From Apostichopus japonicus (Eukaryota > Echinodermata > Holothuroidea > Aspidochirotida > Stichopodidae), in the NCBI RefSeq assembly GCF_037975245.1, contig NC_092562.1, positions 19,684,054 to 19,748,053 on the forward strand: DNA of 64,000 nucleotides, in the 5' to 3' direction. The notes below the pieces were generated by a model that was given only the letters and a program-made list of their open reading frames with translations, ran no database searches and was not told where the DNA came from. Shown in pieces: positions 6,041 through 57,600 of this stretch. The position numbers and the translations under genes are program-made. Positions within the stretch are counted from its first letter, which is position 1, and every line of letters begins with the position of its first letter.

Positions 6041-7244
6041 CAGGGAAACAGACAATCATACTGTAAAAACCCACAGTATGAATGAGATGTTGCCTATAAC
6101 AGGCACCTGATACAGTCATTCTTTCTTGCCAAGGGCTATTCTCAATCTTGCCAATGAATTCTGTAGGAAATAGGCCAACTTTATGTGTCAGAACATGGAC
6201 GTAGTAGTCTTAATTTTTTGTTTTAGGAATCAGATTATTATGTTTTTTCGATGTATTTATGATTGTTTTATTGTCTGTTTTACTGAGATGGAGTGAATGC
6301 CAATTCCTTTCATGGTCAATAAAGATTCTTATATGTTATATCTTATATAAGGGAGTAGTACATTGGAGCTCAACAATTTGCAATGTACTTAAATGTTTCA
6401 CATGAAAAGTTAACTACAAGACTACAAATCTGCATCCATTTTGATTTTACATGTATGGGTGGACCTTATCCATGTGACCAAATAGACAATACTGTAGGGT
6501 GTACAGTTCATTATAATTATAAGTAATCTAATGGAAGTTGTACATGCCGTACATAATGTCAATATAAAGTTTCACCACAACTTTGAGCAACTGTGATAAC
6601 CCTGAAAGGGCTTGTTAAACTGAAGCATTGTGTTTCACACAGCTACTGTACGTCATGAGTGTCATCACCCAATTTTAAGTTCAATTTGTTGTAAATTTAT
6701 TTGAATTACAGAGATTGAATTTGATGTGTTGATGTTGATGAAACAACAGATTGGAAATGGCTAGACAAATTCACACACTAGCCAAGGTTGACTATTTCAC
6801 ACAAAACATACATGTCCAAGATAACACTTGGTTCCTATCTACAAAATTAACATTATTTACATTTTTTATCAATTGGAGACATAATTTATAAATGAGGTTG
6901 GCATTGAAGTGGTTTAATAGAGATCACTGTGATCACAGAAGAATCCAGGCATCATCTAAAATCTAACATTAAAGTTTAAATAATCTGAAATTTTGAATTG
7001 TTTCTGTCAGAACTTGATGGAAGTCTTAGGCCAGTATGTTATATCAATATTACTGTAATATGATATTTCATGTACAGTATGACCTCAATGGCAAATATCT
7101 TTCCTCATAATTCTCTGAAATTTTGGCAGAAATAAATGGTCTGAAAGCTCTTTAAGAATATGATGGTATATGGTAACTTTGGGATGTTTTTGGGTGATGT
7201 CCTCATTCCATCTGATAAGACAGGCTTCACATGACACATTGATC
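6041..7244. other. Intergenic, no gene seen
   Basis: AT-rich sequence upstream of HAUS3 on the minus strand. It should contain the HAUS3 promoter and a 5' non-coding exon, but no TATA box, CpG cluster or donor stands out. No ORF resembles a known protein. Confidence 0.5.
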
Positions 7245-8817
7245 AAAACATTTTTGGGATATCTTGGGATATCTCGCTTCCAGACAAGTGGGTGTTGGAG
7301 ACAATTTCACAAGTGTACCAAATAGAATTCACCTCCAGTCCGCCTACCGGGAATGGAGGAAGACTGACCCCAGCACCTGCGGACCCTGTCCAAAGAGCTG
7401 CTCTAGAGGGGGAAATTTCAGCCTTGCTGGCAAAACGGGCAATTGTAGAGGTATCGGGAGAGGCAGGGCCTCGGTCCTCTTTCTTTCTAACAAGAAAACG
7501 GGACGGATCTTAGCATCCCATCCTAAACCTAAAACCCCTGAACAAAAACTTCATAGATCCAAAACATTTCCGCATGGAAATGCTAAATTTAATTCTACCC
7601 CTACTCAGGAAGGGAATGTGGGCCGCGAGCGTGGACCTCCAAGACACCTACTTGCACATACCTATGCACCGACACCATCAATGGTACTTAGGCTTCCAAT
7701 ACGCCGGAAGGGAATTCACATTCAGAGCGCACCCATTCGGCCTGTCAACGGCTCCAAGAGTGTTCACAAGAGCGACAGGAACTGTCATCTCCCACCTCAG
7801 ATAAAGAGGAGTGACACTATACGCGTACCTCGACGATTGGCTCATAGTAGGAGAGTTGAAGTCAGACGCATCAAACAACGTACACAAGACGGTACGAACC
7901 CTCCAGGAACTGGGTTGGATAGTCAACGAAACAAAGTCACAACTGACCCCGACACAGAAGATCCAGTTCCTGGGGGCAGTACTAGATTTTACGACAGGGA
8001 TAACCAGTCCCTCAGAACAGAGGATCGAGGCAGTCAGAACGACCACAGCCCAAATCCTATCACGACAAGAGTCATCGACAGGGATGTGGCTCCGAGCCCT
8101 GGGACTGATGGCCAGCATGGTCGGCGTGGTGTGACTATGCAGACTACATATGCGCCTGCTGCAACTACATCTGCTAAAGACTACCGATCTGAAGAACTTA
8201 GACAAGACAGCACCGATCCCCCGGTTGGAAGAAATCGTATCACACCTACAGTGGTGGCACGACACAGAGAACTGGGATTGTGGGGTCCCCTTCATCGTGA
8301 ATCTGCCAATGATATCGGTCACGACGGACGTCTCACTGACAGGGTGGGGAGCCCACTGGAACAACCAAACAGCCTGGGGGACGTGGTCTCCAGTAGAGAA
8401 AACATGGCATATCAACATACTAGACATGTTTGCTGTCAAACAGGCTCAGGAGTCCTTCCACAAGAACGTGCAGAACACAGCGACCAGCGTTTTCACGGAC
8501 AACACCACTGTGGTAGGGTACATAAACCGACAAGGGGCACTCACTCCGAGAGACTATGTCGGTTGGCATGTGAGGTCCAAATGATAGCCAAGGACCCTGG
8601 CATGACGCTAGGAGCATCCAATATCGTGGGCAAACTGAAGGTGATGGCCGATGCTCTGTCCAGAGGACAGATGGACCCCAACGAGTGGGCACTATCCCAA
8701 GAAACATGCAACAGGATCTTCGAAGGTCTCGGCAGACCAAAGGTGGACCTGCTTGCGACTGCGGAGAACGCCAAAATTCAGATCTTCTGCTCCAGGTGGT
8801 TCCACCCCCAGGGCTAA
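7245..8817 (+). pseudogene. DIRS-like retrotransposon fragment: reverse transcriptase and RNase H, decayed
   Basis: One reading frame (7289-8584) gives DIRS-type RT/RNase H broken by in-frame stops at 7511, 7802, 8132 and 8582. Visible motifs are WVLETISQVYQIEFTSSPP at the start of RT, YAYLDDWLIVG (the catalytic YxDD box) at about 7820-7855, then the RNase H segments TTDVSLTGWGAHW, DMFAVKQAQ and FTDNTTVVGYINRQG. After about 8585 homology continues in another frame with VMADALSRGQ and VDLLATAENAK, a segment typical of DIRS elements. A frameshift therefore lies near 8580. No tyrosine recombinase or split repeats follow, because other element debris begins at about 8820. The assignment to DIRS rather than Ngaro or PAT rests on RT/RH style alone. 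Confidence 0.85.
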
Positions 8818-32759: not shown

Positions 32760-35700
32760 ATATATAGAAACTTTACCAGCATGAAATTGTTTTTTCTTTT
32801 CTCTTTCATTGGACTATGACATGTCAAGGCTGAAACTCAAGACTGAAGTCTACCTGTCAACAACTATTTACGACAGAACTTCAGTCTCGATGTCATATTC
32901 TAACAATGAAATACTGAGAAGAATTTTGTTGCTGGTATTGTGTCAACAGCCTGAAAATAATCACATTTGAATATTCATTTTGCAACAACAAATTATAAAT
33001 ATCGACTTTAAAGTTTATCCATGATAATACTCAACAAACAGAGCCTAGAGCAATTAACGAAAAGAAAAAAAACACCAGATAACTTCCATTTCACGAATGT
33101 TTTCGTCCTTTTGGGACTCATCAGGAGAAGGTAGGAATCGGACCCCAGACCTTTGTGTCACAGACTGAAGTCCGTACCACCCTACCACAGTAATTCTACT
33201 GGTGTGTGAATGCCTACAAACTGGTTTTTCATAACTGTCAATGAGGACGTATTACCCAACTTTTATGACTGTACAGAGTGCACCCCTGGTGCTTTGAATC
33301 TGACAATTTACACAGAATTGCCACATTTTATAGGCAAGCCAAGTCGTAAATATGAAATGAATGTGTAGCAAGTGGTATGACAGATAAAAAGTAATAAATA
33401 AAGATCAAGACACCAGAAAAATTTCACTTCACAACCGGCTTCATTCTTTTGCTATTGATTTACCATACATCTGTCATACCACTTGCGACACATAATATTT
33501 CTTATTTAAGGATTGGCTTGCCTAGATATGTTTATAACAACTGTGCTTATTCATCAATAATTTAACTAGCTGTATTTGAAGGTTACCATAAATCAGCTAA
33601 AACAAAATGGTAAATATTCAACTGAAAATTAAGCATGGCACCTTTTCTGCAGGTCCCTGCAGGTATTGAATGTGTGTATAGCACTGGCTTTACCTCTGGT
33701 ACTAAATATTTATGATGCTGGTCTGTGGTACAGTTAACACAGTTAAACAAGTCTTTCATTGCAACCATACCAAATATATGCAAAGATGAAACTTATATGC
33801 GTGTAAGGAAGGATGTGTAAGTACAAACTGAGTGCTGGTCGATGTTTTCTTCATCATACTGGCTATAAATATATCGGGTCACTACTTCTTCAAATTTCTA
33901 GAATCCTATCCTACCGATGGACATTAAGTGATGGTGAGAAGTGTATCAATTTCTGATTGGCACTAGGCCTGTAAGACTGAGGGTAGTTACTAGTGCTGAT
34001 AGTCGTAATAATGATTAATCGAACAGTAGTCGCGATAACAACTTTGGAAGTTTGATTAATCGCGCTCAAAACCCAAGTTGCGATTGCTCGACTACAAGCT
34101 AGCACTACACATAATCTGCTTTTGAAAAATAGCCTAACCTATCAAAAACAACACTCAAGCAGTTTGTATCGCAAATTTAAAGGTTCTCACAATGCTACAC
34201 TACACCCCAAATGTTATTTATCAGTGGATTCATGCTGGATTTTTGCTTGTCAGTAATGCACGCTTGTTCTGCAGTGCCACATTCAGTCCTAGCAATGTTT
34301 GATCATTGCGCATAATCGCAAATTCGTAAGTTATTAATCTTTTGCGATTGCCAAAGTATTTGTCATTTCTTCAAACATGTTTAAAATTACTTCATTTACT
34401 GATCTGATTCACATTTTTCGGCTGATCGAGTGTGTCGATTGCGGTGTAGTTTATTTTCAATGTGCAAAATATGTGCCTGCTTTCGCGCTAGGCCAGAGCC
34501 TAGCCTTGAATGTTGAACGTCCTTCTACAGGAAACTCTTGCATACTAAACATCACACTGCTACCGGGTGTTACATCTTTTCACTGTTTGCACGTTTGCTT
34601 TTATTAGTTGAAGTAGTTGTAGTAGCCTCGTAGATTCATTCAAAAGTTTTTAATTTACTATGAAGGATTTTAAGAAAGTTGGAGATTGAAAGTTGTTCAC
34701 AGTTTTTGTTAGGTAGATGTTTTCACATGGTTTAGACACCACACATTAAGACACAAGAACAAATAAAGGCATTGCACCAAAGGAGAGAGATCCGTTTTGA
34801 CTGTATTTCTGTAATGTAAAAATGACAGCACTTGATGACGTCATAACTGTCACCTAGTAATCGCAGTAATCGGGAGAAGAGCTATGCGATTACTCAAAGT
34901 CTACAAAAGAAAGAGTCGACTATTAGCACTAGTAGTTACAGACAGCTAGGTTGCCTACATGTCGTAACATAAATTATGCAGTCAGTGAAAGAAAAGAATT
35001 TTTATGAAATGATGATATGAATATGGATTCACAGGCTAATGCAACAGCAGGTGCTTTTGATGTGAACAAAGACAAAACCTGCTTAGTCCTGAAAGTGAGG
35101 TTATGCATTTCATCTACAATTTTACAAAATTGATGATCTAAAACACTCGGAGAGTTTCTTTAAAAAACTGAAGGTTTGTGAATATTTAATTGATGAATTT
35201 GATTCCACTTTTCAACGATATATTACCCAGATTCTTTTCATAGTTTTTATTCATTCTTCAGTTACACGTAGGCGAGCAAATTTCAAGGTTTTTCCAGCAT
35301 GAACTTTAATGTTTGAAATCAACATGTGACTAACCAAATTAGCCAATGAACAACTTTGTTATATGATTTATAGTATGGAATATCAATATACAGTAGCATA
35401 TCATAACATATATCAAAATTTACTTTAAAAGCTGCTTTAAAAGAAGAAAAAAAAATGAGTTTAGTCAATGAAGTATTTTACCAAACATTTACCTTTTTTG
35501 TGATGATGCAATGTTCTAACAAAACAAAGCAAAGATTGGTCAACGACAGTCGACAGATAAATTTTCAGCGCAATAAGAAAATAAAAGAAATGACTTCTGC
35601 CTGCCACAAATCCTAAAAGAAAAAATTCAACCATTCTCTCCTTTTTAATCTAGATAATCCTTTTTTTAATCTAGATCATCCTTTTTTTAATCTAGATAAT

Positions 35701-41468: not shown

Positions 41469-41632
41469 AGCATCATTATGATCCCCTTCTAGGGGAACCA
41501 TCATAACCACCTGACAATGATCACACAGTCTCAATGCAAGGGGACTGGGGTTGAGAGCGGATCAGTCGTTCGGTTGTTTGGTTTTCGTTGCCAGGTTCTT
41601 TCCTGGGTGACGTTTTTTTTTTGTTTTTTTAA
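41469..41632 (+). mobile_element. SINE-like repeat, body copy A
   Basis: It contains CCCCTTCTAGGGGAACCAT, then TGATCACACAGTC, ATCAGTCGTTCGGTTGTTTG and a terminal hairpin CCAGGTTCTTTCCTGG followed by GTGACG and a T-rich tail. The same order occurs at 41740-41858 and 50072-50222, and partly at 41636-41730. Confidence 0.75.
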
Positions 41633-41635
41633 AGT

Positions 41636-41730
41636 ATCACACAGTCAGTCTTGATGTAAGATGACTGGGATCAGTCGGTTCGCAGTTTGGCTTTTATTGG
41701 CCAGGTTTTTTCCTGGATGGCTTCTCTTAC
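41636..41730 (+). mobile_element. SINE-like repeat, body copy B (5'-truncated)
   Basis: ATCACACAGTCAGTC, GATCAGTCGGTTCG and the hairpin CCAGGTTTTTTCCTGG follow the order of copy A, but the first 50 bases of the body are missing. Confidence 0.7.
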
Positions 41731-41739
41731 AAAAATAAC

Positions 41740-41858
41740 ATTATGTTCCCCTTCTAGGGGGACCGCGATACACACTTGACGTCGATAACCACACAGTCAC
41801 AGTCGATAATAAGTTGTTTGGTGCCCAGGTTCTTTACTGGGTGACTTTTCTTAAAAAT
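41740..41858 (+). mobile_element. SINE-like repeat, body copy C
   Basis: CCCCTTCTAGGGGGACCGCG, ACACTTGACG, CCACACAGTCACAGTC, then the hairpin CCCAGGTTCTTTACTGGG with TGACTTTTCTTAAAAA. It is followed at once by the U2-like segment at 41867. Confidence 0.75.
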
Positions 41859-41866
41859 CGAAAGCT

Positions 41867-41904
41867 ATCGCTTTTTTGGCCTTCTGGCTAAGATCATAAG
41901 TAGA
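41867..41904 (+). ncRNA. U2 snRNA 5'-end-like segment (pseudogene or SINE head)
   Basis: ATCGCTTTTTTGGCCTTCTG continues to GCTAAGATCATAAGTAGA. This matches the first 35-40 bases of U2 snRNA (ATCGCTTCTCGGCCTTTTGG then CTAAGATCAAGTGTAGTA) with a few changes. Homology stops after that. It directly follows the tail of body copy C, so it may be the head of a further, truncated unit. Confidence 0.75.
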
Positions 41905-42475
41905 CTGTTGTGCACCTTAGCACCCTGTGGACAGGTGGCCCCCTGTATGCTTCAGTGCACACAACTTTAGTACACACGAACCTTGAGTATACATGCGCAC
42001 TTTAGTACCCTAGCTGTGTACCCCACAATACAGTATACACCACAGGACACTACACCACAGTACACAGTAGCTTTGATCAATTGCGCGATACAGGAAGGTA
42101 CACAATACAAACAAATTTGTAGCAGGAACGATGAGTTTAGGTGAAAGCTGTTATGACTTCAAAATTAAAGTAAACAACCTCACCCAAACTAACCTAAAAA
42201 TTTAATAAGATGTAAAAACTTTTTTGTTTACTACTGAGTGAAGATGTTTGTTTACAAGTGACTAAAAGTTCCGGCTCGGATAGCAAACAATCTACATGGT
42301 CATGATACGGCAAACTGATGGTGCCATTAAAGGGCAACTTGTCAGCTATCCGGTGATTGGTAGCATTTAGCTAGTGATAACTTCTATCTAGACTTAGAGA
42401 CCACATTACTTTTGTAATTTAGTGTGTAGGTCAATGGGGCTTTTAATGTGCGTATGCTACCTTAGTAGTAGCACC

Positions 42476-43109
42476 CAGGGGCGTATCGAAGGGGTTTTTG
42501 TTGGGGGGTGTGGAGAATTTGATTTGCCGACGGATCTGGAAGTGGTGACTGAAATGGGGGAGGGGTCTAAGGAGAGGGGGTGTCCCCCTCCCCTTTGGAA
42601 AATTTATAGTTTGAAACGTCCTTAGATGCAATCTGGTGCATATTTTAAGTCAAATTTGATTTGCCGACGGATCTGGAAGTGGTGACTGAAATGGGGGAGG
42701 GGTCTAAGGGGAGGGGTGTCCCCCTCCCCTTTGGAAAATTTATAGTTTTGAAACTTCCTTAGATGCAATTTGGTGCATATTTTAAGTCAAATTTGATTTG
42801 CCGACGGATCTGGAAGTGGTGACTGAAATGGGGGAGGGGTCTAAGGGGAGGGGGTGTCCCCCTCCCCTTTGGAAAATTTATAGTTTGAAACGTCCTTAGA
42901 TGCAATCTGGTGCATATTTTAAGTCAAATTTGGCACAGAAGAAGCTCCCGTTCTCCTTTCTCTATTCAGCTTTCCTTCTTTCTTCCCCTTCCGCTCTCTT
43001 CACCTTTTCTCCTTTTGCCGACAGACCCAAAATTTGCCGACAGCGACCAAATTATTGGGGGGTGTGACACCCCCCCCCCCCCCCACACCCCCCGCTCGCT
43101 ACGCCCCTG
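42476..43109. mobile_element. hAT-like MITE with internal 137-bp triplication, nested in the 3-kb element
   Basis: The ends are CAGGGGCGTA and TACGCCCCTG, flanked by GTAGCACC at 42468-42475 and 43110-43117. GATTTGCCGACGGATCTGG begins at 42521, 42658 and 42795, so a 137-bp unit is repeated three times, each with a GGGGAGGGGTCTAAGG and a CCCCCTCCCCTTTGG arm. A run of about 18 C ends the element. Non-coding. Confidence 0.9.
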
Positions 43110-43867
43110 GTAGCACCTTCCGTTTAGGGTAGTAGCGCCACTAATTTACAGTAGCATCGCCGCCTGTAGTAGTAGCATCGCCTATTAAGAGTAGTAGCGC
43201 CACCGTTTTAGAGCAGTAGCGTCACTTAGGAGTCGTAGCACCTCCTGTCTAGAGTAGTAGCACCACCTGTTAAGAGTAGTAGCACCTCCTGTTTAGAGTA
43301 GTAGCGCCACCTGTAGTCCTTTTGACGTTCCATAGATAATGACATGCAATACAAGTTTATTCAATCTCTGTGCACCTCACTCGTGTGATGTATGTAGAGT
43401 ACAAACATGCTTACAAAGTTCATATGACAACAACGTTGACAAAAAGAATTAAAAGGGGGAAAATATATATATATAATAAAAAAAAATGTATACATGGAAA
43501 ATGGTAGCGCCAGGCCCCAGAGGTATAAGAAGAAAAAGAAATGTGGACGGAAATGCGAAATGGAAAAGAATAAATAGCTTCAAATGCATACGGGATGAAA
43601 AATAAAATAGAAAGAAGAAAGAAATAAAAAACTAATTTACAATGCCTTTGGCAAGAAACTACTGAAATTTGTAGTAAATTTCTCTGCAAAGCTTAACAAG
43701 GTTGGAAATGGTTGTTCTGTTACTTGATTGAAGCAATTGCTCCATATTTAATGTGTTCGGTCTATTCCGCAGAAATATGACTTCATATAATCAAATAAGC
43801 TCAACCTATAGCGTATAAAAGCGATACGGAAACTTCGTATGGACTTTAATATAATAAAAACACTTTG

Positions 43868-44545
43868 TATTTATTTCAGCCATGTTTATGGACAATGAGG
43901 ATTATTTTCGAGGTTAAAACTCTGCTCCACCTTTGTGTAGCAGCTCAGTAAGCGATTGATTGTAGAACTTTTATAGTTTCGATTTTCGATCGAAGTTAAG
44001 AATCACATATCGATAACTTATGACCCTAATATACCTGTTTATTTATTTTCGATTATCGTAAGTACCCTATGTATTAATTTCAGCCACATTTATGGACAAT
44101 TAGGTTGTTTCTCGGGGTTAAACTCAACTCCACCTCAGGGAAGCTCACTAACGCGATTGATTATGAATTTTTTAAATTCGATTTTTGACCAAATTTAATA
44201 TTTGACCAAACATATCGATAACTTATAGACCTGTTTAGTTATTGCAGATTATGTTAAGTACCCTATGTATTAATTTCAGCCACATTTATGGACCATTAGG
44301 GTGTTTCTCGGGGTAATAAAACTCAGCTCCACCTCAGCCGGGGTAGCTCACTAACGCGATTGATTGTTCATTTTTTTTTAAATTGGATTTTTGACCCAAT
44401 TTCAGACTTTTTTAAAAACATAGCGATAACTTATGACTCTAATAGACCTGTTTATTTAGTGTAGATTATGTTAAGAACCCTATGTATTAATGCCAGCCAC
44501 ATTTATAGACAATTAGGGTGTTTCTCGGAGTGGAGTCATTAATTA
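43868..44545. repeat. Tandem repeat, just over three units of about 200 bp
   Basis: The phrase TTTCAGCCACATTTATGG or its variants recurs at about 43875, 44078, 44274 and 44491. Each unit also holds a CTCCACCT box, the phrase CTCACTAACGCGATTGATT and CATATCGATAACTTAT. Confidence 0.8.
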
Positions 44546-45130
44546 AATTAAATATCAGACATTTATCAAATTATAGTAAGTTAGGGTATATAGCAGAAGT
44601 TTGATGCCTTTTGCAGGGTGGTGCTGAAGGCCAGCCTACCTGCATTAAACCACATGAGCCAATTGAACATTGTTGATATATTGATTTAATTAAATCTCCG
44701 ACATTTAATGAAATTAGAGTAAGTTAGGATATAGCATAGGTTTGATGCCCTTTGCAGGGTGGTGGGTGAAGCGCAGCCTGGTTGTATAGAGATTGTGATT
44801 GTGGTCATCGGTCAGGTGTGTATTAGAGTTGAGCTACAAGGGGGATATAATGGTACATATGATCTTAGGTAGAATCCCGAGAAGCGTTGCTGCCATGCCA
44901 TCGGCAGTTTAACTCGCAAGAGGCTTATAAAAGAAAACACTGCCGTGTAGGAAATTGTTTGAGCTATTGTTAAGTTCAGTTGGCACAGTTGTCGGAAATT
45001 TTGCTATTGGCGTTAAGGCAGCTTAACTCGCAAGCAGCTTATAAAAGAAAACGTGCCGTGTGGAAAATTGTTTGAGGTATCGTTAAGTTCAGTTAGCACA
45101 GTTGTCGGAATGATGTTGCAGGGTAGCTCA
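44545..45130. repeat. Two further duplications (about 145 bp and about 118 bp units)
   Basis: GTTTGATGCC then TTTGCAGGGTGGTG occurs at about 44609 and 44740. AACTCGCAAG then GCTTATAAAAGAAAAC occurs at about 44911 and 45027, each followed by TTAAGTTCAGTT and GCACAGTTGTCGGAA. Confidence 0.75.
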
Positions 45131-46803
45131 CTAACGCGATTGATTGAAATTTCACAATCAACAGTCTGAGACGATACTGATTATTTAAAAGTTGCAGATA
45201 CTGTATCAAGTGAAAACACCTGCGCTACATTCACGTCACTGCTTGTAATGTTTTTTTTTTTGGGGGGGGGGGGGGGGTTGTGTATAAATGTTTCTTATTT
45301 TACTTTGAAAGCTGAAAATTTTCAGTCCGAGTCAGATAATCAGCTCACCCATGCACCCAAAGTTAAGTATTGCAACAGAAAGTTGTACTTTTGGGAAAGT
45401 GCCTGCGGTAGTTTTGCCCCCCCCCCCCCCTTCCTGTTACTTTACCCCGCTTTAAATATGTAATAACGTACAGCCAAGCAACAGTTTTAAAGATTTAAAG
45501 CAACAGTTTTAATGTATAATGACCGACCACAACAAGATTAAATTAACATAACCAGATCCTTCTACCTTTAGGTATGTGAAAATATTGCAACTGTATAGCC
45601 TGCTATGAATACACCGTGTCCCTTTAACCAGGACCATGTGTTCATGTGCCAATTTTAAAACATTTAAACATGCAGCGTTACATTCTTTACACTGATTTGT
45701 CAGAACGGTTTTCTTTTTTCCCCTTCTCTTTTCCCCTCCATATGTCTTCACGATCATTCAACATGGTAAACATTAAAATTGTACATTGCAAAAACAACCA
45801 GAAGGCAAAAATGCATTGTGGTTACGATGATGTAACATGAGCAGTTTCCTTCATGAATCTGACGTAATGTACAGTGAGGGTGCACATGTTTACAAGGTTT
45901 TTATGATTTGACCTCTGATGACCCCAACTGACCTTTGCACTCCACCAACACAATATGCTTCTTTAACACAATGTGGTATCCTACACACCAAATACGAGGT
46001 CGGTATTGTTTTTGAAAACCTCGTAAACACGATATCCAATTGAGAGCAAACAAGTTGACTTTATGTCACTTATATCAAATTTTGTAGGTTACAATAATCC
46101 TTTAAAAATGACCCAAAAAATATTTTTCCAGAAGCAACACTTGATTAAACTGAGGTAAGATCAAAACGTAAACTAAACTAGACAAAAATTTGTTTTGGAC
46201 TGGATTTTATTTACTTTTTTCAAGCATTTTGTGACAACATGCTTGAAAAAAAGAAAAAAAAAAACCTAAATAAAATCCATTAGCACGGATGGGTTGCTAA
46301 TAGCACGTGTTCTTTTGTTACGAACTAACAGACTAACTAACATGGTGATTTCATGAGCTGATTCCGACAGTTAAAAATATATTTCCACACAGCCCGTCTG
46401 TATTCTATTAACTACTGTGTGAAAATGGGCTGTAATTTTTACCAGGCTCCCCAGTGCACTGGCCCAACGGGCATTGCTCAAATGCCCGTGTGGGCCAGTC
46501 CGCCACTGACTTTATGCATGGGCTCGTGTTTAATTGCCACATTTCTTAGAGTTGGAATATTTTTTCCGAAGAAGGTATTATTATAATTATAATTATTATT
46601 AGGTATTTATTGCCTGGCCGGCGCCGTGTTTGTTATTCAGACAATCAAAATTGCTAGACTGGTGGTGGTGGTAGAGCACAGACATGGCATAATCAAGACT
46701 AGCAGTAACACGACCTCTATGTCATAGGAAACACTGTAACGCTTGTATACATTACTCCCCGTATATAGTAGGATAGGTCTACGCTACATTATAGGGGTTA
46801 ACG

Positions 46804-46840
46804 CAGGTTCTTTCCTGGGTGAACTGTATTAAAAAGTAAC
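46804..46840 (+). mobile_element. 3' end remnant of the U2-headed SINE family
   Basis: GCAGGTTCTTTCCTGGGTGA with AAAAAG shortly after equals the terminal hairpin of the copies near 41600 and 50200. Nothing of the upstream body is preserved. Confidence 0.5.
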
Positions 46841-46884
46841 ATTATAGTAGTTCTTGTTTTGATCCCTGCGACCGTCTGTGCGAG

Positions 46885-47494
46885 CAGGGGCGTCGCCAGA
46901 CATTTCAATCTGGGGGAGGGGGCACAGGGAGGGCACAGCACTTAATTCGGGGGTTACAATGTTTATTTGTAAATGCCGTCCTGGGGAGGAGTCTATAGGG
47001 AGGGGGTATATCCCCCTTTGAGAAATATTTAATTTAGGGTCCTTATATGCAATCTGGTGCTATATTTTGCAACTTGAAGTAACTTTATGTTCAAGAATGT
47101 TCGGGCTTAGTCTGTCCGATATTAATGTTTTTAATTGAGGCGGATAAAAAAGTTATACACAAATTTGGAAATTAACCCTTTTGCCTTGATAATATTTTTA
47201 AATAAGAGTGTTGAAAATGTAAATTCATGCAGGTTAGTATATAGTGAAGGTTTAACACTAGCGGTTCACGCCGGGGTCTCTGTGACCGTGTTAGTGAGAA
47301 AACAACCGGTTATAGTGATGGTCGGCGGGAAGAAGTTCTACTGAAGAACATACGTTTCGTCCTTTGTAAAAAAGTTTTTAATTTAATAATTTTTTTAACA
47401 CTACAAATCGCATCTGGGGCACCTGGGGTTGGGGGGGGTCACGATTTGGGGGGAAGCGCACGTGCCCCCAGGCCACCCCTTGGCGACGCCACTG
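46885..47494. mobile_element. hAT-like MITE, 8-bp target duplication
   Basis: The left end CAGGGGCGTCGCCAGA and the right end, complement CAGTGGCGTCGCCAAG, are inverted. TGTGCGAG flanks both sides (46877-46884, 47495-47502). GC-rich tracts lie near both ends. No transposase. Confidence 0.88.
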
Positions 47495-47502
47495 TGTGCG
47501 AG

Positions 47503-48744
47503 GTATGTGTGTACATCTATGCTATTTCAATGACGTGCACGTAAAGTATAACTGGAAGGAAGGTTAGATTGCGACATTTCTAAATCTGTTGTGAATATAA
47601 TTTCGTTTTTTAAAATGTCAGGGACTTCTTGTTAATGCTTGGGACATTTTCGGGCCACCTGTTCGTCGGAGAAGAACATTGGAATCGGGGACTGTTCCCG
47701 AAAATCGGAGCCGTCTGCATGGTCACCTTATGTTATGTGCACTTTATGCAGGTGAACTTTTGCCCAAAGTTTTACATCTCTCGCTTTCCATCCACTTGCC
47801 CCTCTCCCCGTGTCCCCCCCCCCCTTCCCACAAGCTGGAAATGATGGTACCGCAACTTGCTTATAGGTATATGCTTTGTAAAAATAAAACTGAACGTTAC
47901 TTCAAAGATTCCGTACATTAATCATATTAATGAACTTAGAAAAAACGTTTGAGCTTACTCTTATATATTCAGTCTGCCGATACAAAAGACCACAGCTGTT
48001 ACCACTGCGGAGAAGTATGTGTGTGTAAGTATAAATAATTCATTTTTATTTTATTTTATTTATTTGAACTTTCGCACAGAAGAATGTAACTCGGTAAGCC
48101 GAGATTAATCTTCCCGAGGCCCTCTGTTGCAAACTGTATGAAACATAAAATGGTGGAAAGCACGACAGTAAACGAGCAGTATATTATATCCATCCATCCA
48201 GCTGAAATTATTGGATATGCTGTGATGATAAAAAGACTGATATTTATGCAAATAAACTTTCATAAAAATTTTTATTTACCATTACATAAACAACTAATGA
48301 AAATTGCGAAGCTAAAAAATGTAATCAATTGATCAAGTTAAGGAGTACCGATACCAATTATAATTAGTTATCAAGAGTTACAAATTGGTTATAAAGTTAC
48401 ATAAGGCAATAAATTTCCACAAAAAAACGAGGGTGTAGAATTTAGTATAGGCTGGTAGTAGAATTATAGAAGTTTAAGTAAAAGTATATGTTTGACCATT
48501 TTCCACTTTGTAGCATACTACGGAGACAATATACTGCTAACCTCACTACAATGCATTAAATTAACAAAGGCTGCTTCGGTCTGCGCAATGTCCTATGATC
48601 AAGTGATACGTTATTTGTGTCTCGGTGAACAGAAGTACCCATGCATGATGTCAAACTTACCCGCAACTTTTGACAGCACCGACTGCTACATGCATGACTG
48701 ATATGTAGTTTCATGGATGTGTTTATTACATTTCTCTTAATTAT
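47503..48744. other. Intergenic; nothing recognised
   Basis: AT-rich, with a CCCCCCCCCC run at 47814. Short ORFs have no family features. Confidence 0.4.
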
Positions 48745-49970
48745 ACCGTTCATTCCATCCTGGTAGAACCTTCTCATTTTGATACCGCTCTTTCCATATT
48801 AGTAACGTCACTCTTTCCATGTTGGTTACACCATCCGTTTCATATAATTGGCTATAGCACTCTTTCTATGGTTATACCACTAATTCAGTGTCAGTTATAC
48901 CATCCTTTCTATATACTACGGTACCACTCCATGTTGGTTATATCACACTTTTTTTCCATGTTGGTCACACGGCACCCTTTCCATTATGGTTACACCACCC
49001 TTTCCTTTTTGGTTATACTACTCTTTCCACGTTGACTATAACACTTTCCATGTTGGTTATACCAACTATTTGCATGTTATTTATACCATTATGTGCATGT
49101 TGGTTATACTACCCTTTCCATTTTGGTTACACCACCCTTTCCTTTTTGGTTATACCACGCACTCCACGATGGTTATAACATCCTTTCGATTTTGTTTATA
49201 CCAACTATTTCCATGTTAGTTATACTATTCTGTGTATGTTGGTTATACCACCCTTTCCATTATGGTTACACCACCCTTTCCTTTTTGGTTTATACTACTC
49301 TTTCCACGTTGACTATAACACTTTCCATGTTGGTTATACCAACTATTTGCATGTTATTTATACCATTATGTGCATGTTGGTTATACTACCCTTTCCATTT
49401 TGGTTATACCACCCTTTCATATTTGGTTATACCACGCACTCAACGATGGTTATAACACTTTCCATGTTGTTTATACCAACTATTTGCATTTTATTTATAC
49501 CATTCTGTGTATGTTGGTTATACCACCCTTTCCATTATGGTTACACCACCCTTTCCTTTTTGGTTTATACTACTCTTTCCACGTTGACTATAGCACTTTC
49601 CATGTTGGTTATATTTACTATTTGCATGTTATTTATACCATTCTGTGTATGTTGGTTATACTACCCTTTTCATTATGGTTACACCACCCTTTCCTTTTTG
49701 GTTTTACTACTCTTTCCACGTTGACTATAACACTTTCCATGTTGTTTATACCAACTATTTACATTTTATTTATACCATTCTGTGCATGTTGGTTACACCA
49801 CAATTTCCTTTTTGGTTATACCACGCATTCCACGATGGTTATAACACTTTCCATGTTGGTTATATACCAACTATTCATGTTGGTTATACTATTCTGTGTA
49901 TATTGGTTATACCACTCTTTCCATGTCGATTATACCACTCTTTCCATTACTTAAATCCCTTATTCCATTT
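48745..49970. repeat. Minisatellite, about 22-24 bp unit, over 50 copies, with higher-order structure
   Basis: The unit varies around TTGGTTATACCACCCTTTCCA. Blocks of about ten units recur (for example from GTTGACTATAACACTTTCCA at 49033, 49309, 49583 and 49721), giving a higher-order period. All three forward frames remain open over long stretches because the unit lacks forward stops. The resulting Tyr/Phe/His/Ile-rich ORFs are shadows. Confidence 0.9.
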
Positions 49971-50045
49971 TCAAACCATTCTTCAAAAAGAGAAGCGTCC
50001 TCGTTTTATCAACAATACTCTATCAGCACGCTTCGGCACTCCAGT

Positions 50046-50222
50046 ATAAGATCATGTGTAGTATGTGTTCTTTTCGAGGGGAATGGTGATGCACACCTGA
50101 CGATGATCACACAGTCACAGTCTCGATGCATGGGGACTGGGGACTGGAGAGCGAATCAGTCGTTCGGTAGTTTGGTTTTCGTGCCCAGGTTCTTTCCTGG
50201 GCGACTTTTACTTAAAAAAAAG
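50046..50222 (+). mobile_element. SINE-like repeat copy D with U2 snRNA-like head
   Basis: TAAGATCATGTGTAGTATGT followed by GTTCTT matches U2 snRNA (bases about 20-45, including the branch-point-pairing GTAGTA) with two changes. The non-U2 body then begins: GAGGGGAATGGTGATGCAC, ATGATCACACAGTCACAG, ATCAGTCGTTCGGTAGTTTG, the hairpin CCCAGGTTCTTTCCTGGG, and an A-rich tail. This is the copy that joins head and body. Confidence 0.8.
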
Positions 50223-50752
50223 TACTCAGCTGTGCAGTATATAGCCTCATCGTGTTACTATAGCCCATTTGCACTTAGGAAACAGATCTCGTGGTTTCTC
50301 TTTTCATGTCGGTGTAGCAGCTTCTCTAATGCCACTTCTCTGATCCAAGAGGTTTGTGTTGCCTTTATGATAAGTCAGATCATACTTCATCAATTATCTA
50401 ACGTTGAGAAAATTGTCTTGAAACACTGAATAACGGATCATGGCGCTTTTCAAATATCGGGCGTATTTTATTTGTTGTAGCTGTTAACTGAAACCACTGT
50501 TGATTTTAACCGTTACCAACAAGCAAGAATAATAGCAGGCATATATTCGATCTTTATTTGCAACAAATTCCTCCGACATAGTCGATGAAAATAAATAATA
50601 AAAAATAATAAACGTTTATAGATATATAAAATGTTAAGAAGGTTGCAGAGATTAGTCAATGTAGATACCTAGGTCTCTTTCAACAAAGACCTCCTGTAAC
50701 TCCTCACCATTAAGAGTGTAGGTATACTTTTGGTTATTACTACCATGGAGCT

Positions 50753-54399: not shown

Positions 54400-54637
54400 A
54401 AGAGTAAGGCAAAATATGTCACCAAAAACAGAACTAGTATTGTTCGATAAAGGTGACAAACGCCTACAGTGGAATTACGACCTTCCTTACCGGTTTCGAA
54501 CCTCTGGACATACAATCAGCGTCCATAGCCTAGTGGTTAGGGTGTCCGCGTACAGAGCGGAAGGCCCGTGGTTCGAATCCCGGTGGAGGCTGAAAGTTTT
54601 TTCACTGTTCTTGATTTTCCAATTGATTACGATTTTC

Positions 54638-54672
<35 letters not shown>

Positions 54673-57600
54673 AATAAATAGTAGTGGTCCATACTGATAA
54701 TATGAAAGATAAACTAGCGAATATTTTTAACAACGACATACTGCTATATTTCGGAGTGGTCACCACTCCATCGTCAGGCAAAAACACAAGATCAATTAAA
54801 TACAAGGGCTAATATACATCCAAGGACGCCAATAGTGATAAGCATGAGTGATTTTTAAACTAGGAAGAAACTTAGAAACTTTTAAACTTAGAACAACCAG
54901 CAAATTTTTTAGTGAATATTTTTAACTTAGGAATGAATAGAACAACCAGCAATAAAAAGTAAATAGGGATTAGAATAGCTCCAACCCGTAGCTCGCTACA
55001 TTTCTATAATAGGTCAGCATTTAAGTCTTTTTTTAGGAGACTCTTTAATCTTCCTCCTGAACCACTGGGGTTCATTACCAATAGTGGCACAATGGTCAAC
55101 AAAAGTAGGCAGATGATGTTTATGCGCAGTACAATGAAGGTTAATAGCGCCTTTCTGACCACCAAAGGAGCTCATCAGATGTTCGTCTATTAGTTTCTCC
55201 GACATAAAAGGAATCACAGTCTGGACAGTTAATCCTATAAATAACATTGTTGGCATAATCTAACTTATAAGCATCCTTAAAATTGAACAGAGCAGAGATT
55301 TTCTTTTGCAGAAAAATTATTTTAATATGTATATTGTCAATATACATATCTTTGACTTTTTTGTTTTGGCAAAGCTTTAACCCAGTTTGGGTGGATGCAT
55401 TCATATACCTATTGTTGTGTATACTATATTTGTACATTTCTTAGAGTGATTTAAACACAGTAGGTCGCTATGGGGTTATACTTTACTCGCGATTGCATCT
55501 GTTCCACCTGACGTATATATACCAAAGATATACACTACTGTGATAACAGTCACATTTTCGCATTAGTCTATAAATCCGCTGCAAAACATCAGTGGGCGGG
55601 GGGGGGGCAAGGTGGAGGTTGGGAGTTTGCAACATTATTTTGTTTCATGTGGGCTAATAATAATTAGTATACGACATTTTCTGAATGTTTTGTTGCATTC
55701 TTTGCAGCTATATTAGTGAAGGAGGGATTGGAGGTTCTGGCAAGTGATCTGTAGTGGGACTTCCGCTAGACTTGGTGATCCCCTTCCCCCCCCCCCCCCG
55801 GCCCTATACTCCCTCCTCTTTTGATTGATATAAACGAATCTTTGCATGATAGTGCAAGTTAATCACGATTTCTGAACCCATTTTGGTCATTTGAATTATT
55901 TCAATTAGCAGCGGATAATTATTTGTCCTTAGCGTATATTTCCTTTATCATCAGCAATAGACTGGCTATGGACTTATCATCTGTTTGGACTATGATAAAA
56001 TATGTTCATAAACACGTTAGTTCTATGTTTTAAGCAATTCAAAGAAACAAGATCTACGATAATCCAAAGTTCTGATCTTCTTCTCTTTCCTGACATTCCC
56101 TCAGCACCTGTCGGCAATTTGTTGATGCGCTATTTTCCGTTCCGGTTGAACATGTCTATTGGAATTATAATTAGCGGGGTGTTTCTAAGCTTAGTGAGTT
56201 TCGCCAATTCTTCCATTGTATTGGCCATATGTTTCACTGGGGTAGGTAAGTATATGTATAAATATATATGAAAATAAAATAACACTGCTAGCAAACTGCT
56301 TATCCACTAAAGAGCCTGTCTAAGAGAATGTGTAAAAGAAAGATAAGTATAGACAAGGGGTGGATCCCTTGTCTACTAATCCCCTTACATCTATCTCTTT
56401 GTGTTCACCATGCTCATTATAACCTGTCTGTATTCTGTGCATGTTTTTGTCCTATATGTTACTGTTACTTGTCATTTAGCCTCTGAAGAAGATCCTGCTA
56501 GGATCAAAACGTCAGACTTTTACACATATATCTTTCTTCTTCTTCTCTGTCAGGGATCGGGCTGTCTGTTCAGATACCTAATATTGTCATCTACTTATCC
56601 GCCGTATGTGGGAAATCTTATCCTTTCTACATGTCCGTTTTATCGTCGTCAACTTCGATTGGTATTTTCTTGCTTCCACCGGTCGTCCAATTCCTATTGG
56701 CATCTTACGGGGTCTTTGGTAGCTATCTTCTCATGGGAGCGTTGATGTTGAACGGAATACCGGCGATAGGCTTACTGAGGTCAAAGGTAGACTTGGTACC
56801 TACGAAAGACACCCTTGATTCGAATTCCAACGGATTGCTGAAATCGTTAAAATCGTTCATCTCACCAACGGATAGTTTCACAATCAACATTGCCTTAGCA
56901 ACGACCGTCTTCCTTCATCAATTTTCATACTTCGCTTTCAACTTGTACATCATTCCATTCGCCGAGGCACAACCACAATTCCATACTACCAAATTCATTT
57001 CTCTCATTGCGTCCGTATCTGGTGCTGGTGGAATCATTGGTAAACTGATGGCGATTGTGGTGTTTTATTTCCTGTCGAAAACACCAACTCATGTGTTGAT
57101 CCTTTATACCATATCGTGTCTGGTTACTACTATAACTTTATCTTTGTACACGTTTTTAAAGTCTTTCACCGTCTGGCTATTACTGACATTTATGACTGGA
57201 ATGATGATACATCTACAGGTGTCCATGATTAATGGTATCGTCAGCTTTGTAGTAACACCAGAAGCATTTCCTTATGCAATCGGCTCTCAGTGTTTTCTCT
57301 ACGGAGCAGGCGAAATTACATCTGGAATACTTTCAGGTATGTAAAGTTATGTATAATTATGCATACCCCTCACACTGACAGGTGTCCGGGCCGGGGCGGG
57401 CGGGGGTGAAGGGGTCGTGTGCCTCTTTTCGTGCTGTAGAATTGCGAATATTTGTTTTCAATGGAAGGTATCCATTTTTGTAACGTAAAAGTGCAATTTC
57501 GGTATTTGAAAACTGGAATTCCAATACTGAAATTCGTGGTGTAGAATGTCCCACTGCCATTCGAAGTTGTTCCCCCCCCCCTTCCTCCTTTGCGTCTAAG

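Follow-up and report, generated by a model that had tools for sequence, protein, structure and literature searches.

How does a short interspersed element (SINE) that begins with a piece of a small nuclear RNA (snRNA) come to be transcribed? The question is raised by a 64,000-nucleotide stretch of the genome of the sea cucumber Apostichopus japonicus (contig NC_092562.1, positions 19,684,054 to 19,748,053; G000:C2:19684054-19748053 in the genome searches, hereafter the window), in which an initial annotation had recognised a SINE-like family with a head derived from U2 snRNA. SINEs are expected to carry an internal RNA polymerase III (Pol III) promoter, and U2 genes use external promoters. The comparisons described below make it reasonably probable that the family is a recently active, SINE-like echinoderm retroelement, mobilised in trans by a Keno-like long interspersed element (LINE) of the U2 site and replicating through the U2 snRNA genes. 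The new observation is the presence of element copies inside tandem U2 genes, between nucleotides (nt) 38 and 39 (nt 38|39).

A dispersed family with a U2 head

The genome searched comprises 671.6 Mb in 35 contigs. With copy D of the window (50047-50224, + strand) as query, 41 matches were listed, 40 of them scored among 2693 candidates, and 20 regions were aligned. In these, the full element starts with ATCGCTTCTCGGCCTTTTGGCTAAGATCATGTGTAGTATCTGTTC, corresponding to U2 nt 1-45, and its end reads CTTTTTCTTAAAAAGTA; in full copies, of about 190 bp, U2 sequence extends from nt 1 to nt 45-50 and is followed by the body and a 3' hairpin with AAAAAGTA after it. A 32-letter pattern of the 3' end has 1719 genome matches (898 + 821) and a 50-letter pattern of the head-body junction 761 (384 + 377), while the reversed-pattern control gave 0 in both cases; thus, chance is excluded for the family.

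As the first 20 regions had been chosen with a headed query, two further samples were drawn, one by the 3' hairpin alone and the other by the head alone. For the former, 80 regions were fetched from about 100 listed places on contigs C1-C3, and merging of identical 3' flanks reduced 94 copies to 81 distinct ones. The U2 head is reached by 64 of the 81, with the standard junction in 60 of these and small deletions beside it in the remaining four. Starts fall at nt 1-6 in 41 copies, nt 7-38 in 23, nt 39-60 in three and further in in 14; in the printed ones of the 41 copies starting at U2 nt 1-6, the U2 upstream region is absent before the head. For the head sample, U2 nt 6-40 with up to two mismatches matches 1008 genome places, U2 genes included (control 0), and all 20 exact matches sampled (19 distinct sites) run into the element body, three of them (L157, L161, L167) without its 3' end; 16 of the 20 loci passed the 3' filter of the 5'-end analysis. 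Genome copies therefore share the head and the same junction, many of them with target duplications, and the U2-headed family postulated by the initial annotation is real in this host.

The element is short, dispersed, abundant and non-coding, with a head from a small-RNA gene, target duplications and 5' truncation, which are the marks of a SINE; the snRNA-derived head at a constant junction is that of the SINEU type, and, like the R2-type SIDEs, the element occupies the target site of a LINE within a multicopy RNA gene. It lacks an open reading frame (ORF) of its own, and most copies are dispersed. As a separate observation, eight exact junction matches stand on one strand, about 3-4 kb apart, at G000:C5:11042398-11066021, where a larger tandem unit perhaps carries the element.

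Element copies inside U2 genes

Host U2 genes were represented by 46 scored matches out of 40968 first-look candidates, 42 on contig C16, many at a spacing of 645 bp, and four on C15. Over the first 50 nt, these genes are identical to the head of the fullest element copies, a comparison that the initial annotation had proposed; nt 30 is T in the host and A in human U2. Some genes of the array are interrupted, by LINEs as well as by the element. The pattern of element tail followed by U2 nt 39 occurs at 20 genome places (control 0), seven of them in the C16 array, where the order is upstream region, U2 1-45, body, AAAAAGTA and U2 39-end, with the insertion at nt 38|39. In five interrupted array genes, the 97 bp that precede U2 and the remainder of U2, nt 39 to its end, are both kept at 100% identity. 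Since the array copies stand behind an intact U2 upstream region, the element's head most likely represents the 5' end of the host gene itself.

Among the array copies, the three of L172 carry U2 to nt 45 in two cases and to nt 53 in a truncated one, that of L171 carries it to nt 42 followed by one change, and a dimer in L170, which accounts for two of the seven places, carries it to nt 40; in L169, a 3' fragment follows a Keno-like 3' end, U2 39-53 standing on either side. A further place, L173 on contig C20, has the element within a diverged U2 copy. Another 11 of the 20 places consist of an element tail followed by another element copy, and a duplication around the whole double copy was seen by eye in four of nine printed (L175, L179, L180, L181); L184 is unrelated. 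L178 reads as a truncated copy inserted at nt 38|39 within the head of an older one; its descent from the L170 dimer was considered and rejected, as the junction differs. A source copy at a C15-type U2 upstream region was likewise rejected, because all four matches precede intact U2 genes.

The array copies are close relatives of the dispersed ones: the three full single copies have best dispersed matches of 98.95-100%, and L172_1449 and a dispersed copy in L061 agree at 191/191 positions. The target duplication inside U2 is nt 39-53, 15 bp long (two cases). The truncated copy, L172_666, is a headless body standing behind U2 1-53 in a U2 gene, and here a headless body has obtained U2 1-53 by insertion alone. 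The head is, accordingly, probably the 5' end of the U2 genes that host copies rather than a promoter module.

LINEs of the U2 array

The site nt 38|39 is also used by resident LINEs. In L081, U2 1-50 is followed by a LINE whose ORF1 bears CCHC and whose ORF2 has the domains Exo_endo_phos and RVT_1, and its 3' junction reads ...GAAAAGTA|TCTGTTC, with U2 resuming at nt 39; families F2 and F3 end in ...GAAAGTA|TCTG and ...GAAAAGTA|TCTG, respectively. The array LINEs thus have the element's own 3' junction, together with open frames. According to PMC4640811, Keno, with an apurinic/apyrimidinic endonuclease (APE), and Utopia, with a restriction-like one, have a common 3' site at U2 nt 39; given their APE-type domain, the array LINEs are Keno-like. 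The 3' untranslated region of family F1 occurs seven times in the genome, each time inside the U2 array. The terminal AAAAGTA is the only 3' stretch common to the element and the array LINEs F1 and F3. Separately, in one array LINE (L083, reverse strand, 744-774) the junction with U2 is at nt 31, and the U2 ATG (nt 29-31) is in frame with ORF1.

Other parentages were tried. Derivation by deletion from the array LINEs was rejected, as the element has no similarity outside U2 to L081, L083, L090 or L091, which leaves other LINE families possible. LINE F5 was set aside as a partner, its 3' similarity being weak (best p 0.0155 in eight uncorrected tests), and inspection by eye of 11 F5 3' flanks found no U2-like target. 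LINE F4 was rejected on account of its poly(A) tails and the tRNA genes near three of seven copies. Those F4 copies (L084, L085 and L087, near Ser, Gly and Leu tRNA genes among the seven loci scanned) perhaps belong to a tRNA-targeting family.

Insertion marks, age and target preference

Target duplications scoring at least 8 accompany 48 of 111 copies outside L061-L064, compared with 0.5% of shuffled flank pairs. The whole sample gives 59 of 130, a figure that includes nine copies of the L061 pile, whose repeats are not independent, and three TA-repeat sites; the rule behind it replaced an earlier one that had yielded 36 of 76. The pile itself (G000:C2:21947400-21949200) consists of nine element copies, most of them 5'-truncated, set head to tail at a TATCCTAT target. 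The commonest duplication length among dispersed copies is 15 bp (11 of 42), in a list drawn up without L061 and the three TA-repeat loci and with lengths that may include 1-3 letters common to the tail.

Comparison of 88 copies revealed three pairs at different places that are 100% identical over 174-188 bp, a median nearest-neighbour identity of 97.2% and two copies below 80%, which together indicate recent activity in an old family.

For the analysis of targets, 69 of the 130 sites were kept (GTA tail, outside L061-L064, near-identical 3' flanks merged). The bases +1 to +3 after the tail are skewed to T/C, C and T (chi2 20.5, 38.6 and 11.1), and the match to U2 TCTGTTC averages 2.61 at the targets and 1.81 at nearby positions, with none of 5000 resamples as high. 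Moreover, of the 42 GTA-tailed sites that have a duplication, at least 32 have A as the base before the target, the tail's last A being common to the target. At dispersed sites a weak preference for U2-like targets persists, A|YCT, similar to the A|TCT of U2.

Probable origin and transcription of the head

On the evidence of the array copies, the U2 promoter, and not an internal Pol III promoter, most likely drives transcription of the head along with the element. The U2 promoter would yield a U2(1-45)-body-U2(39-end) RNA, on which the protein of a Keno-like LINE would begin reverse transcription at AAAAAGUA|UCU, and new copies would terminate in AAAAAGTA, with U2 1-45 carried along as a passenger head. 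Dispersal would be to sites roughly matching the U2 site, perhaps with pairing between the target and the UCU that follows the element; the dispersed copies, without a promoter, would mostly be dead ends, and insertion into U2 genes would renew the source by supplying head and promoter together.

The strongest competitor is a SINEU-type origin, in which the head would have been added, perhaps repeatedly, by jumps of the reverse transcriptase from element RNA to mature U2, the array copies being secondary insertions at the LINE site. It is considered unlikely. Extra partial heads are present in L016 and L173, the six main junction types (a-f) occur on bodies of different types (of the 82 copies whose junction could be read, 16 fall outside every main type), and PMC3414825 reports that the R2 reverse transcriptase jumps to U12 snRNA and tRNA. 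Nevertheless, the U2 part of the element ends at nt 45-53, within the stretch that is duplicated on insertion at nt 39, whereas jumps to mature U2 should often yield longer or varied U2 pieces; furthermore, the truncated array copy owns U2 1-53 without any jump.

A far less probable alternative is that the element is an ordinary SINE, driven by a Pol III promoter inside its head or body, and that its copies in the U2 array are incidental. U2 nt 18-28 does resemble an A box at six of seven positions, but the A- and B-box matches of the element consensus are no better than those of shuffled sequences (0.80 and 0.995 of shuffles as good), and T runs that would stop Pol III (TTTT at nt 15 and nt 150 of the element, TTTTT at nt 180) lie inside the copied unit. 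That the family is not mobile at all, but consists of structural RNAs or is a satellite that spreads, is scarcely credible: the RNA fold is more stable than that of 200 shuffles (z -4.1) and some copies stand in tandem, yet the defined ends, 5' truncation, unrelated flanks and, above all, the target duplications contradict it. The Rfam U2 model scores 59.2 and 46.3 bits in two copies (cut-off 46).

Several points weigh against replication through U2 genes. The array copies, whose transcription is predicted from the sequence, could be recipients only. The element's hairpin was found in no LINE, and it has only its last letters in common with the array LINEs; F1 keeps strictly to U2 whereas the element is mostly dispersed, so that F1 is doubtful as the sole partner. 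The junction of L172_666, a truncated body after U2 1-53, was the only array-specific junction searched for and has no dispersed offspring. Finally, the extra partial heads and the mixing of junction and body types mean that template switching or recombination also acts.

Copies within the window and neighbouring features

Copy D is a 5'-truncated member of the dispersed family. Its match to U2 is genuine, though the segment is 29 nt long and not 26 as first described: 50047-50075 matches host U2 nt 22-50 at 28 of 29 positions (E 4e-8), and the body and the hairpin (50184-50201) lead to a tail ending in GTA at 50224. Just upstream, at 48928-49949, lies a tandem array with periods of 23, 137 and 275 bp.

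Three bodies that had been noticed to recur without the head are true, diverged members that lost it through 5' truncation, all on the + strand. Copy A (41479-41636) is truncated near element nt 41, is 83.7% identical over element nt 41-187 and has the tail AAAGTA at 41631-41636. Copy B (41637-41739) directly abuts that tail and starts near element nt 82, with 70.5% identity over nt 82-192 in a match that begins at 41636. Copy C (41740-41860) starts near element nt 41 and has an internal gap between the pieces 41744-41804 and 41817-41857. The hairpin CCCAGGTTCTTTCCTGGG, described as constant, is exact in D and one letter off in A and C, but more diverged in B. The second U2 5' end reported after copy C is likewise present (41867-41903, +), matching U2 nt 1-36 at 84% (E 7e-5); the sequence 3' of it matches a 55-bp satellite-type repeat and not the element body, and it is probably the head of a further copy whose body was replaced by that repeat.

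Two more copies were found. Copy E (44782-44886, -) is an old copy with head and 5' body, 70% identical over element nt 3-107 and spanning the head-body junction. Copy F (about 46795-46838, +) is a 3' end alone, with ACATTATAG at 46786-46794 and 46839-46847 as target duplication.

Elsewhere, the window holds a 524-aa open frame at 7243-8814 (+) with no Pfam match at E 0.001, a Hammerhead type I match at 33089-33130 (-) of 28.6 bits, under the gathering score of 34, a tRNA-like gene at 54519-54591 (+; Rfam tRNA, 50 bits) and an open frame at 56502-57341 (+) with a Major Facilitator Superfamily match (E 1.4e-12). Pieces of cox1 occur on a second contig (G000:C29:14745-31219), besides the mitochondrial C35. 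On C35 the cox1 gene can be read with genetic code table 9 and precedes frames that, by eye, look like nad4L, cox2 and atp8, while ARAGORN detected no tRNA there; such a code and gene order point to an echinoderm.

Comparison with known systems

The crocodilian SINEU, described by Kojima in 2015, reportedly has a head derived from U1 or U2, a Tx1-group LINE as probable partner and recurrent addition of the head. Both SINEU and the present element are SINEs with an snRNA-derived head; the latter differs in its echinoderm host and in that copies reside within U2 genes, where they occupy the target site of a LINE behind a preserved upstream region. The SINEU paper (doi 10.1093/gbe/evv100) is cited in PMC8010984 and PMC7245038.

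The R2 SIDEs of Drosophila are, according to PMC3414825, short, non-autonomous residents of a multicopy RNA gene that are co-transcribed with it and use the machinery of a site-specific LINE; they have LINE-derived ends, and a 5' ribozyme removes the host leader. The present element is likewise short, non-autonomous and resident in a multicopy RNA gene, and co-transcription and use of LINE machinery would be further likenesses. In contrast, its host leader stays on and is kept as the head of dispersed copies, no ribozyme was found in two element copies (Rfam, E up to 5), and its body has no likeness to the four array LINEs compared.

With Keno and Utopia the element has in common the 3' site at U2 nt 39, and the array LINEs have the Keno-type APE endonuclease. 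A weakened U2-like preference outside U2 is described for crocodilian Utopia in PMC4640811. Keno and Utopia are, however, autonomous LINEs, unlike the ORF-less and mostly dispersed element. Among the matches listed in a literature search, there was neither a SINE resident in U2 genes nor a U2-headed echinoderm SINE, and the primary SINEU paper or Repbase may hold an earlier description.

Implications

Taken further, the element may be a promoterless SINE whose life cycle passes through an snRNA array, site-specific insertion giving it promoter, start site and head, and the dispersed copies being fall-out; this proposal is held in even balance. Downstream U2 letters in the chimeric RNA might then help priming at A|TCT-like sites. 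The U2-gene copies with an intact upstream region offer a concrete, testable answer to how an snRNA-headed SINE gets transcribed, and they link a high-copy dispersed element to the niche of the site-specific U2-gene LINEs, both of which interrupt U2 genes. If the proposal is true, leader capture by site-specific insertion would be a general origin of snRNA-headed SINEs, the crocodilian SINEU included.

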